Assembly (NCBI GenBank): GCA_003153495.1
Contig: PLYU01000183.1
Location: forward strand, 1-34,797
Reading direction: 5' to 3'
Length of the DNA stretch: 34,797 nt
From: Myxococcales bacterium
Lineage (GTDB): Bacteria; Myxococcota_A; Polyangia; Polyangiales; Polyangiaceae
The position numbers and the translations under genes are program-made. Positions within the stretch are counted from its first letter, which is position 1. Each line of letters begins with the position of its first letter. The notes under the pieces were generated by a model. That model worked only from the letters and a program-made list of their open reading frames with translations, was not told where the DNA came from and did no database searches. Positions 3,672-10,126 of the stretch are shown one piece after another.

Positions 3672-5138
3672 TCAGCGCGCCGCGCCGGGCGGACGGGGCG
3701 TCGAGCTTCGCACGGCACTCACCTCGTCTCGCGTGACCGCGGCGCCCGTGTTCCCCCACGAGTTTCGCACGAACGTGAGGATGTTGGCGATGTCGTCGTC
3801 CGGCAGCTGGCTCAGCGGAGGCATCACCGAGTTGAGCTCCTTGCCGTTCACCGTGATCGGCCCCGTCTTGCCGTTGAGGACGATGCCGATCGAGCGCTGC
3901 TTGTCGGCCATCAGGAAGTCGCTCTTGGCGAGGGGGGGAAACGCGCCCAGCACTCCCTGCCCCTCCAGCTGGTGACAGGGCGAGCACGTCCCGAGGAAGA
4001 GCTGCCGGCCAGCCGCGATCTGGTCCTCTCTCGTGAGGGCGCCCTTCGCGGCGTTCTCCGCCGCCGTCTGCATGGCGCCCGTGGCCGTCGCCTTGTCGCC
4101 CAGGTAGACCGAGTCGATCTCGCGCCCGGAGTAGATCTCCTTCTGCTCCGGCCCGTCCACCTTGAGCATCCCGAGGGCGCCCTTGTTGAAGGCGCGGAAG
4201 AGGGCGTGGTCCACCAGGATGTAGGTGCCGGGCACCTGCACGGTCAGCTCGACGATCGCCGCGCCGCCGGGCGGAACCACGGTCGTCTGGACGTTCTCGC
4301 TGAAGCTGGTCCCCGCCTCGCCGTAGACGCGGTCGAAGATCTCGCCGATGAGGTGGAAGCTCGAGATCAGGTTCGGCCCGCCGTTGCCGACGAAGATGCG
4401 GATCTTCTCGCCGACCTTCGCCCGGAGCGCGTTGTCGCCGATGAGCGATCCCTCGCTGCCGTTGAAGACCACGTACGTGGCGTTCTCCTCGATGGCCTTC
4501 TGCATGTCGAAGGGCTGCAGGCCCTTCTCGCGGTACTTGCCGACGGTGTAGAAGTCGCCCTGCATCACGTAGAATTCGTGATCGACGGGCGGCAGCGGCT
4601 GCGTCGGCTCGACGTAGATCAGGCCGTACATCCCGTTCGCCACGTGCATCCCGACCGGCGCGGTCGCGCAGTGATACACGTAGAGGCCCGAGTTGAGGGC
4701 CCTGAACGTGAACTGCGTCTGGTGACCCGGCGCGGTGAAGGTGCTCGCCGCGCCGCCACCCGGCCCGGTGACTGCGTGCAGGTCGATGTTGTGGGGCATC
4801 TTGTTGTCGGGGTGGTTCTGCAGGTGCAGCTCGACGGTGTCGCCCTGCCGGACGCGAATGAACCGGCCGGGCACCTGACCCCCGAACGTCCAGAACGTGT
4901 ACTTGACGCCGTCGGCGAGCTCGCGGACGACCTCCTTCACCTCGAGGTCGACGACCACCTTCGCCGGCCGATCGCGGCCGGTCGGGGGCGGTACGGCGGG
5001 CGCGTGCGTCGGCTCGGCCTTCACGGTCTCCTCGGCCGCCGCCGCGCTGGTCGCTGGCGCGGGAGAGCTCTTCCTGGCTTCACTGCAGCCGGTCGCGAGC
5101 AAGAGGGCGACGAGGAGGGTGGCCTGTCGGGAGTGCAT
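3672..5138 (-). CDS. nirK: Copper nitrite reductase with fused C-terminal cytochrome c
   Basis: This 488-residue lipoprotein (ATGC lipobox, Cys18) is predicted to reduce nitrite to nitric oxide in the periplasm. Two cupredoxin domains span about 60-330. By motif alignment to known NirK, type 1 Cu ligands are H116, C157, H165 and M170 (MPHN, YHCATAP, MHVANGM). Type 2 ligands are H121, H156 and H311. The catalytic Asp and His are D119 and H262 (FHLIG). A cytochrome c domain follows (about 370-465), with heme motif CSPCH (C385, C388, H389) and probable axial Met439 (VMPPL). This makes a three-domain NirK that can accept electrons through its own heme. A short Pro/Ser tail ends the protein. A GGGG tract 7 nt upstream may serve as the ribosome site. 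It heads the nirK-nirV-sco operon. Confidence 0.96.
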
Positions 5139-7315: not shown

Positions 7316-8737
7316 TCACGGGGCCTGTTTCTGGGCGAGCGCCGCGCGCGCCTGCTGCACGCAGGTCTTGTCGCCCAGGTCTTTGCAGGTGCTGATGAGG
7401 AGGCGGATCTCGGTATCCGAGGCCTTCCCGCCGCGGAGGCGTTGCTCGATCTGCTGCTTGAGGAGCATCTTCGAATCGGTCGTGCCCTGCAGGGCGAGCT
7501 GACGCTCGCGCTCGTCCGCGCTGGTGCCGGCGGTCTTGGCTGCGGGCGCGGCCGGGGGCGGGGAAGGGCTGGCAGCGAACGCAGCCGTCTCTGCCGGCCG
7601 TGGCGCGGCCTCGACGGCGACCGCCGCGGTCTTGTGGCTCGTTTCCGGGCGGGCCGTGGGGGTCGGTTCGATGGCGTCCCACCCGGCCTTCCCGGCCGTC
7701 ACCGTGATCGGGCTCGGGGCGTCCGGCGCCGTCGCGGCGCCGGCGTCCGAGGCTCGTGCCTCATCGGCTGCCCTTTGCGGAATGACCGCCTCCGAGGACG
7801 CCGTCGGGGCCTTGCCGGCCATGTCGGCTGCCGCCTGGGCCGGCGACGATGCCGTCGTCACGGCCGTCGGCCGTGATGCGTGCGGGTGCGTGTACATCCA
7901 GCCGGCCACGGCACCTCCGGCGACCACGGCGGCGAAGACCGCTATGGGCAGCGCATTGGATCCGCCCCGGCTACCGAGGAGCTCGCTCGCGGTGCGGTGC
8001 CCGATCGCCGCGAGCCGCTGGCTCTCGGTGGGCACGAATATCTGGCCCGCTCCGACGAACTTGAACTTGACGTCGCCGAGCTCGATGACGTCCCCGGCTT
8101 CGACGATGCCCCGGCGCAGGTCCGCGCCGTTGACGCGGACGCCGTTGCTCGACCCCTTGTCGACCACCTCGAAGCGTCCGTCGTCGAGGGCGTGGACTTC
8201 GCAGTGCAGCCGGGACACCGAGTTGTGGTTCACCGAGATGTTCGCGTCGTCGGCCCGTCCGATCGTGATTCTCTCGCGGCCCAGGGGATACTCGGTGCCG
8301 GGGGTCGGGCCGGCCAGCATGACCAGGCGGTTCGGGCGGTCCAGCAGCGCTGCGGCCATCGCGGAGGGAGCGCCGGGGACCGTCTTCTTGAGGTCCTCCC
8401 CTGCGTCCGCCGTGGTCGCCTCCGACAGCGACTCGTCCTGCAGGACGATGCGGTAGTCACCGATCTGGACGAGATCGCCGTGCGCGAGGTCCCGCGCGTG
8501 CGTGACCCGCAGGCCGTTGACGAAGATGCCGTTATAGCTGGTCAGATCTTCGAGAACGAACTTGCCCTTGTCGGGGGCCCCGCCGTTCTTGGTGTAGAGG
8601 CGGGCGTGCTCCCGCGAGACGTTGCGCTCCGTCAGCCGGATGGCGGCCCCCTCCTTCCGGCCGATCGTGTACTGGTCGCGCGACAGCGGTACGATAGTCC
8701 GCTTCCCTTCGTCGTCTTCGATGACCAGCTTCCACAT
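7316..8737 (-). CDS. Tandem FHA-domain membrane-anchored protein
   Basis: 473 residues. FHA1 (about 22-98) and FHA2 (about 150-228) each keep phosphothreonine-binding signatures: GR26-27 with SREH and SYNG in the first, and GR160-161 with SRLH and SSNG in the second. One transmembrane helix follows (about 262-282). A long Ala/Pro/Thr-rich linker then leads to a charged C-terminal helical region with a pair of cysteines (STCKDLGDKTC). FHA domains bind phosphothreonine on partners of Ser/Thr kinases, which are abundant in myxobacteria, but no such kinase is in this window. By positive-inside reasoning the FHA domains are cytoplasmic and the linker periplasmic. The promoter probably lies in the divergent region shared with the ribbon-helix-helix gene. 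Confidence 0.93.
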   Translation of the reverse strand: MWKLVIEDDEGKRTIVPLSRDQYTIGRKEGAAIRLTERNVSREHARLYTKNGGAPDKGKFVLEDLTSYNGIFVNGLRVTHARDLAHGDLVQIGDYRIVLQDESLSEATTADAGEDLKKTVPGAPSAMAAALLDRPNRLVMLAGPTPGTEYPLGRERITIGRADDANISVNHNSVSRLHCEVHALDDGRFEVVDKGSSNGVRVNGADLRRGIVEAGDVIELGDVKFKFVGAGQIFVPTESQRLAAIGHRTASELLGSRGGSNALPIAVFAAVVAGGAVAGWMYTHPHASRPTAVTTASSPAQAAADMAGKAPTASSEAVIPQRAADEARASDAGAATAPDAPSPITVTAGKAGWDAIEPTPTARPETSHKTAAVAVEAAPRPAETAAFAASPSPPPAAPAAKTAGTSADERERQLALQGTTDSKMLLKQQIEQRLRGGKASDTEIRLLISTCKDLGDKTCVQQARAALAQKQAP

Positions 8738-8794: not shown

Positions 8795-8835
8795 CCTAGC
8801 TCGCGTCTCCCGATGCAACGATGGCCCCTTGACGT

Positions 8836-8861
8836 GTGATACGTCCGGACGTACGTATCAC
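8836..8861. promoter_or_regulatory. Palindromic operator-like site upstream of the ribbon-helix-helix gene
   Basis: GTGATACGT (8836-8844) and ACGTATCAC (8853-8861) are perfect 9-bp inverted arms around an 8-bp spacer. A 12-bp perfect palindrome, ACGTCCGGACGT (8841-8852), is nested in it and overlaps the left arm. The site lies in the 166-nt divergent gap, about 43 nt before the GTG start of the ribbon-helix-helix gene. Ribbon-helix-helix repressors usually bind short palindromes at their own promoters, so autoregulation is the natural inference. Confidence 0.55.
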
Positions 8862-8903
8862 GTCGTGACACATACAACCGATGCAGAACAGGAACCGGCT
8901 TCC

Positions 8904-9326
8904 GTGACGTCAGAAGAGGGCAAGGACGGGAAGAAGGAGCGCGTATTGCACACTCGCGTTCCTGCCGTCCTCGAGCGCGAGCTGAAGCGATTCGCCGAGA
9001 ACCTCCGGGTTCCCGTCTCGAATCTCGTGCGGACGATCCTCGAGGACGCCGTGTCGGTCGCAGACGCCGCCACGGAGACCGTCGAGGAGCGCCTGCGAGG
9101 GGCTGTCCGGACGCTCGAGAAGGAGCGCGAGAGGCTGAAGAAGCGGATCGAGCACGACCCGCTCCAGGGGATCGTGGCGTTCCAGGACGTGACGCTCGCG
9201 GTGTCCACCGCCTGCGCGCGGTGCGAGCGCGACCTGCCCCGTGGCACGCGGGCCCTGCTGGGCATCAGCGACGCCCCCGACGCGCCTCGCGTCTTCATCT
9301 GCGAGACGTGCCGCCCGAAGACCTGA
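8904..9326 (+). CDS. Ribbon-helix-helix-like protein with coiled coil and C-terminal zinc knuckle
   Basis: 140 residues from GTG 8904. The track start (TTG 8622) would run back through the divergent FHA gene and is rejected; AGGAA lies about 9 nt before 8904. Residues 12-52 look like an Arc/MetJ ribbon-helix-helix: a beta strand (ERVLHTRVP), a helix (AVLERELKRFAENL), then VPVSNLVRTILEDAV. A charged coiled coil follows (about 57-84). The C-terminal ~40 residues hold CARC (C104/C107) and CETC (C133/C136), a probable zinc-binding treble-clef or ribbon. The likely role is a dimeric DNA-binding regulator. The DNA-binding call is inferred from pattern, not a certain family match. The gene ends 2 nt before the convergent cinA-like gene. 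Confidence 0.78.
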   Translation: MTSEEGKDGKKERVLHTRVPAVLERELKRFAENLRVPVSNLVRTILEDAVSVADAATETVEERLRGAVRTLEKERERLKKRIEHDPLQGIVAFQDVTLAVSTACARCERDLPRGTRALLGISDAPDAPRVFICETCRPKT

Positions 9327-9328
9327 CC

Positions 9329-10066
9329 CTACTCGACTTTCTGGGGCTCGCCTGCGGGGAGCAGCGCGACGAAGGCGTCGCGGGCCGCGAGCACGCGGGC
9401 CTCGTCGAGGCCGTCGAAGGTGAGCTTGGTCTTGTAGCTCGCATCGAACCACTTGGGATAGGAGCCGACCGCCACCTCGGGATGGGCGGCGACCACGCCA
9501 TCGAGCAGCGGCTTGAGCACCCCTTCGTCCATCTTCACATAGACCGCACGGGACACGAACGCGCGTCCGCCCCGCAGCCGGGCGACGACGACCGGGAGCT
9601 TCATCCGGAACACCTCCGGGATGCCGGGCAGGAGCCACGTGTTCTCGAACCGGATGGTGGGCCACGTGATCTCGTCCGTCACTTCGAGCGCGGCCCCCTC
9701 GGGGATGAGCGCCATCCTCAGATGGCCCTCGGTGCATCGCTCCCGGTAGTGAGCGCGAAGCATGGCTTCCATCTCGGGAGAAGACACGACCCGCACGCCG
9801 AACGCCTGGGCAACCGCCTCGACCGTCACGTCGTCGTGCGTCGGACCGACGCCGCCGCTGGTGAACAGCCAGTCGTGCGTCCGGGAGAGGTCGCGGACCT
9901 CCCGCGCGATCGTCTCGGCGTTGTCTTTCACGACGACGACGCGCCGGAGCTCCACGCCCAGACCGCGCAGAGTGCGCGCGAGCACGGCGAGGTTCGCTTC
10001 CTCGACCTTGCCGGAGAGAATCTCGTCGCCGATGACGAGCGCGGCGGCCGAGGGCGGGTGGTCCAT
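9329..10066 (-). CDS. CinA/MoaB-type molybdopterin-binding-domain protein
   Basis: 245 residues from ATG 10066. This start follows GGAGG by about 7 nt; the track's long extension to 11005 is a shadow of cheA. The fold is the MoCF_biosynth domain of COG1058: VIGDEILSGKVEEAN near the start and TSGGVGPTHDDVT around residue 75. The family includes the N-terminal part of CinA, which acts as a nucleotide (ADP-ribose/FAD-type) pyrophosphatase. The C-terminal NMN deamidase domain of full CinA is absent. Function could be nucleotide repair or molybdopterin-related; no molybdenum-cofactor genes are nearby. It is divergent from the chemosensory operon. Confidence 0.88.
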   Translation of the reverse strand: MDHPPSAAALVIGDEILSGKVEEANLAVLARTLRGLGVELRRVVVVKDNAETIAREVRDLSRTHDWLFTSGGVGPTHDDVTVEAVAQAFGVRVVSSPEMEAMLRAHYRERCTEGHLRMALIPEGAALEVTDEITWPTIRFENTWLLPGIPEVFRMKLPVVVARLRGGRAFVSRAVYVKMDEGVLKPLLDGVVAAHPEVAVGSYPKWFDASYKTKLTFDGLDEARVLAARDAFVALLPAGEPQKVE

Positions 10067-10126
10067 GGCAGACCTCCGCAACGGTACACCGATACAGTGA
10101 GTTCGGCACTGCTCTGCCCGTCGTAG

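Follow-up and report, generated by a model that had tools for sequence, protein, structure and literature searches.

Repressors of the Arc, CopG and MetJ type read DNA with a beta-strand of alternating base-reading residues that is followed by two helices, and their dimers bind cooperatively to short phased operators. CdbA, a short ribbon-helix-helix (RHH) protein of Myxococcus xanthus, binds c-di-GMP and acts globally on the nucleoid (PMC7156744). In Rhodococcus jostii, the regulator MLDSR is encoded in one operon with the major lipid-droplet protein MLDS; it binds the operator and promoter of this operon, represses it and is sequestered by the droplets (PMC5504291). MLDSR has a predicted XRE-type helix-turn-helix and the box GNT(T/A)GCTNNTGCTANC (PMC5504291). 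In the PhaR-PhaP1 system of Ralstonia eutropha, the repressor has several sites around the -35 and -10 regions of the phasin gene (PMC12849132).

The DNA analysed here (the window, 34,797 nucleotides from a Myxococcales bacterium, genome G000) encodes a predicted RHH regulator whose family was found in 82 of 284 sampled genomes across Myxococcota, the phylum to which CdbA also belongs. As in MLDSR-MLDS, the regulator and a helix protein are encoded in one operon in the main clade of the family, and several candidate sites surround the -35 and -10 regions, which is reminiscent of PhaR. Unlike MLDSR, the family joins an RHH to a zinc-finger-like domain and has GTGAYAC arrays; no XRE or HTH match for the window protein was found in Pfam, the sequence pattern being that of an RHH. 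PhaR differs in its DNA-binding fold. PHB_acc was matched neither by the window protein nor in the 25 most frequent families of the 84 family members, and the family did not co-occur with PHA synthase (p 0.6). In comparison with Arc, CopG and MetJ, a long helix and a C-terminal Cys4 domain are added.

The first-pass annotation could not assign this architecture to a named family, in agreement with the lack of any Pfam, NCBIfam or PDB family match at cut-off for the window protein. No paper on the family was found in the literature searched; to judge from this literature, neither the family nor its operator code has been described, nor have the operon partner and its loss in the window.

Start codon, promoter and candidate operator array

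The regulator gene occupies positions 8865..9326 on the forward strand (GTG start at 8865, stop at 9324-9326). The window protein, with its RHH signature and CxxC...CxxC pattern, had been read from the frame 8904-9326 as 140 residues beginning 43 nt after a palindrome. Homologues are present in 30 of 58 relatives and mostly start farther 5', at the GTG within GTGACAC; many of them have no alternative in-frame start between the promoter and the RHH. Since the window has an in-frame GTG at 8865, 13 codons 5' of 8904, the protein is taken to have 153 residues (MTHTTDAEQ...RPKT), and the palindrome ends 3 nt upstream of its gene. Judged by this conservation, GTG 8865 is most probably the start codon. 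GTG 8904 is preceded by AGGA and is not conserved; it could conceivably serve as an internal start.

A conserved sigma70-like promoter, TTGACG-N17-TACGTA, precedes the gene on the same strand. Its -35 box TTGACG lies at 8829..8834 and its -10-like TACGTA, 17 nt downstream, at 8852..8857. TTGAC occurs in the promoters of 50 of the 89 family loci examined, and the aligned promoters have A at offset 24 in 27/39 and T at offset 27 in 25/39. The first T of TTGAC is 36 nt 5' of the start codon in the window. In the whole family, 41 of the 48 loci scored have a distance of 34-40 nt and lack a Shine-Dalgarno sequence, as opposed to a group (L084, L086-L089) that starts at +54 and has one; this difference argues for a leaderless mRNA in most members. 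Because the last array element includes the GTG start codon, the mRNA of the window regulator is probably leaderless as well. No known RNA element was found at the promoter at gathering scores.

Comparison among relatives places a candidate operator array on this promoter. Element 1 (GTGATAC, 8836..8842) and element 2 (GTATCAC, 8855..8861) form the left and right arms of the palindrome and lie on the forward strand at +7 and +26 from TTGAC, positions shared by the same seven relatives (L002, L004, L005, L006, L009, L032 and L034; element 1 is GTGACAC in L005 and GTGTCAC in L009). Element 3 (GTGACAC, 8865..8871, forward strand) includes the start codon at 8865-8867 and forms with element 2 the composite GTRTCACNNNGTGAYAC at 8855-8871; both element 3 and the promoter were omitted from the earlier reading. 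Across the family, the 7-bp elements GTGAYAC/GTRTCAC overlie the promoter at offsets near 7, 17, 26-28 and 35-38, with a spacing of about 10 or 19-20 bp.

The palindrome itself, GTGATACGT-N8-ACGTATCAC, had been noted before the gene and was recovered at 8836-8861 as GTGATACGTCCGGACGTACGTATCAC; with up to 3 mismatches allowed, it has one copy in the window against a shuffle mean of 0.01. The first-pass annotation would have given it up if relatives keeping the gene lacked it. Its arms are kept, as GTGATAC-N12-GTATCAC or in other arrays of these elements, before nearly every homologue of the window clade. The 12-bp palindrome ACGTCCGGACGT described as nested inside it fared differently: the outer arms are conserved, but the spacer between them varies among relatives and ACGTCCGGACGT is limited to the window genome among the genomes compared, so that the inner palindrome appears incidental.

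The site is rare. The composite GTRTCACNNNGTGAYAC was matched in 14 of the 56 genomes, with one or two copies in each, and stands at the RHH regulator gene in 12 of these 14; a reversed control pattern matched in two genomes. In the window genome, the composite and the spaced pair GTGAYAC-N10-14-GTRTCAC each occur once, at the regulator gene; a genome scan for the motif had been suggested at first pass. Composites away from the regulator were found at gyrB in G029, in the promoter of an alpha/beta-hydrolase gene in G018 and in a small-ORF promoter in G009. The copy in G029 lies inside gyrB and was rejected as an operator, being a chance match.

Control of the divergent gene from the same site had also been suggested. 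This gene (7316..8737, reverse strand) encodes a double-FHA protein (Pfam FHA 1.2e-34, in two stretches), and a two-way operator would be conceivable given that the array is 99 nt from the FHA start and that the divergent neighbour is also present in G001, G002, G012 and G028. The FHA gene adjoins the regulator in some close relatives only, however, and the array, which overlays the regulator's own -35 and -10, keeps a fixed position on the RHH promoter and is equally present where no FHA gene is adjacent. Dual control is therefore very improbable, and the FHA gene is probably not part of the system. Elsewhere in the window, a single ORF at 3672-5138 (reverse strand) joins multicopper-oxidase domains to a cytochrome c domain.

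Regulator domains and covariation of residue 29 with the candidate operator

The RHH DNA-binding region covers residues 24-63 (8934..9053, forward strand), as delimited by alignment A2 and the AlphaFold helices. It consists of a putative beta-strand carrying H29 and R31 and of helices at residues 34-47 and from 51 onward; K24, R31, S52 and R56 are invariant in the alignment. In the model, built with an 84-row alignment, an extended strand region leads into two helices (34-47 and 51-96), a pattern that fits the RHH superfamily and agrees with the fold proposed at first pass. In the single chain the ribbon region has no assigned strand and pTM is 0.44, as is expected when the modelled chain is the separated half of a dimer. 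Family members match Pfam RHH_3 (6.3e-5), RHH_5 (4.4e-4) and NikA-like (1.3e-4) models; the window protein alone reaches 0.05, with all its Pfam RHH matches below cut-off. By sequence, no convincing solved relatives were found, and the family profile matched no solved RHH chain.

In an alignment made by hand, residue 29 corresponds to the base-contacting Asn11 of Arc. Of the 84 members, 67 have His and 15 have Gln at this position. The promoters of His29 members (17.4 kb) contain 162 elements of the GTGAYAC type and 6 of the GT[ACT]ATAC type, as against 4 of the GTGAYAC type in a comparable stretch of coding DNA from the same members. The promoters of Gln29 members hold none of the former and 17 of the latter in 3.9 kb, the GT[ACT]ATAC class having been defined post hoc, after the promoters were read. 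The coding control gave 5 elements in total in about 25 kb. The third base of the element thus covaries with RHH residue 29 in these sequences. As the Gln29 set is one clade (support 100/98), the covariation counts as one evolutionary event. Two genomes (G072 and G250) contain both kinds of paralogue, each with its own operator type, which indicates that the operator type follows the protein. The comparison supports the first-pass view of a protein with RHH, coiled helix and Cys4 domain and a candidate operator of its own.

Two loci, L114 and L131, are exceptions to the residue-29 rule: they have His29, yet GTATAC-type repeats (cgtatacgacatgtataca) replace GTGAYAC ahead of the gene. In the Gln29 clade (L115, L119, L120, L125, L126, L127, L135), the regulator adjoins a small conserved protein, MTDxKxLxELVEDAVDxGATSVEEIHKxIADLPL..., for which no Pfam or NCBIfam match was found in the members scanned. 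The neighbours of the divergent clade repeatedly include ABC1 kinases; these, a lipase-like hydrolase and another small helical protein gave no clear function.

The long helix (residues 51-96, 9015..9152, forward strand, pLDDT about 92) is modelled as the second RHH helix, probably running on into a coiled coil. It is followed by a beta-rich zinc-finger-like domain (residues 103-153, 9171..9323, forward strand, pLDDT about 97) with Cys codons at 9213, 9222, 9300 and 9309. In Foldseek, zf-PARP and C1 domains were the best matches of this domain, at weak E-values of 0.07-0.8 and 10-22% identity, and none fell below 0.001. The CxxC start is shared with these domains; the ligand set is C4 here as against CCHC in zf-PARP, and the window protein matches neither zf-PARP nor C1 in Pfam.

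The four-Cys knuckle of the first reading is present in the window protein and is complete in 56 of the 84 family members; several clades have lost some or most of the ligands. This loss makes zinc doubtful as a defining principle, and zinc sensing was rejected as a general core of the system. Cys117 (9213-9215) is kept in all 84 members, including ten without the other three cysteines; one more keeps a single other.

Operon partner, its loss in the window and other candidate targets

In the window clade, the regulator is accompanied by a small protein of about 80-100 aa with the consensus GxxWARYGLxxGxxAL..A.TL. Its gene adjoins the regulator in 48 of 52 rows, usually downstream and often with an ATGA overlap, and the co-occurrence of the two in relatives is strong (25/4/3/24; Fisher p 2e-8, with kinship ignored). 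The partner is predicted as one helix (residues 14-66). Its hydrophobic moment of 0.35-0.48 at 97-100 degrees exceeds that of shuffled sequences in each of the 16 members tested. A long amphipathic helix with a strong hydrophobic moment is a feature of phasins, and the prediction gives the partner the same feature. No phasin model was matched above cut-off, the phasin-related NF047773 reaching E 0.085 in one member.

The rows without an adjacent partner are the window, L010 (G009), L029 (G056) and L073 (G109). In the window, only 2 nt (9327..9328) separate the regulator stop from the stop of a convergent CinA-like gene (MoCF_biosynth and FLAD1_M; 9329..10117, reverse strand, predicted start). 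G001, G002, G012 and G028 share the order FHA, RHH, CinA, CheA and have the partner between RHH and CinA. The partner was not found in the window genome; as this genome is 78% complete, it may have a copy at another place. This comparison of gene orders indicates that the window genome has lost the partner gene at this locus and kept the regulator.

A third candidate target is the alpha/beta-hydrolase gene. Its orthologues are preceded by elements in 8 of the 14 genomes that also have the regulator, and in none of the 4 that lack the regulator (one-sided p 0.07); no elements were found upstream of the copy in the window genome (L171). In G009, where the partner is not beside the regulator, the sole other composite precedes a weakly similar partner-like ORF.

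Several further arrangements were seen. At L066 (G009:C26, 5668-6481), five operator elements stand before a series of small helical ORFs, which has a leaderless-looking GTGACACAC start and a weakly partner-like first ORF (E 0.011), and before a CoA-transferase III gene. In L096, L099 and L100 the module is rearranged: the partner comes first, then the regulator, then a lipase-like alpha/beta-hydrolase. Partner-like proteins also occur at L163 (G005) and L164 (G021), two genomes in which the search gave no homologue of the regulator.

Proposed regulation and alternative explanations

Judging from the array and its position, the RHH regulator very probably binds DNA and regulates its own gene, and very probably also controls the partner gene where this is present. 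A dimeric regulator would repress its own promoter, with a dimer on every 7-bp element (GTGAYAC), itself nearly palindromic; adjacent dimers may cooperate along the array, phased at about 10 bp, so as to cover the -35, the -10 and the start of transcription and translation. The second gene of the operon in the main clade would encode the small amphipathic-helix protein, and the alpha/beta-hydrolase would be a third target in some genomes. We moderately favour an autorepressor of an operon for regulator and surface-helix protein, with the logic of MLDSR/MLDS or PhaR/PhaP in unrelated sequences.

The signal may, tentatively and by analogy, be a lipid or granule surface. On the appearance of a hydrophobic inclusion, such as a lipid droplet or a similar granule, the repressor would be drawn onto it by its long helix and C-terminal domain; this titration would allow the coat-like helix protein and the regulator itself to be made. 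Titration is proposed because of the amphipathic partner, the hydrolase in the putative regulon and a gene logic shared with MLDSR-MLDS and PhaR-PhaP1. Against titration, PHA synthase is not associated with the family, and co-occurrence of the regulator with WS/DGAT is weak (p 0.017, uncorrected, for one of two enzymes tried and with kinship ignored). The window genome, with no partner found and no elements at its hydrolase, counts against the reading as a whole, as does the lack of a phasin match above cut-off for the partner.

Other readings of the module were weighed against this autorepressor. Gene order, the ATGA overlap and the array operator would fit a type II toxin-antitoxin-like module in which an RHH antitoxin precedes the toxin and the pair autoregulates, and 30 of the 84 members are weakly similar to Pfam CopG_antitoxin (best 3.4e-4). 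The partner, however, is a predicted amphipathic helix for which no match to a bacterial toxin family was found in Pfam, NCBIfam or PADLOC; close relatives have a single copy of the module, which is distributed across an order and beyond; several genomes have a third target gene; and the window regulator persists without its partner. These points make a toxin-antitoxin pair unlikely, and no defence system was found. Switching of DNA binding by Zn(II) at the Cys4 site draws on the compact predicted C-terminal domain and on the 56 members with a complete site, but eleven members keep C117 alone or with one other Cys. Since several Cys-poor members (e.g. L021, L095, L132) retain upstream elements, a metal is not the general switch, and no metal-transport or storage gene was found among the targets; a metal sensor is quite improbable. 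A nucleoid-organising or global role would bring the family close to CdbA, which has the RHH fold and comes from the same phylum. The composite sites, once or a few per genome, stand against the global binding of CdbA (PMC7156744), and the family profile matches no solved RHH chain, which leaves such a role highly improbable.

The autorepressor reading can be extended to a Myxococcota-wide switch in which a lipid or polyester surface strips the repressor off a leaderless array promoter and releases a coat protein and, in some species, a hydrolase. This extension is more speculative still. If true, the MLDSR/PhaR logic would have arisen independently for a third time, and the window would present a regulator that has outlived its coat protein.

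The comparison defines an unnamed regulator family that extends across a phylum noted for its lipid bodies and its development, together with a candidate operator code and an operon partner. A near-unique operator, the covariation of residue and base and a start codon within an element would recommend it as a compact system in which to study RHH specificity and leaderless autoregulation. The lipid step, if true, would give a handle on how myxobacteria control their storage inclusions.
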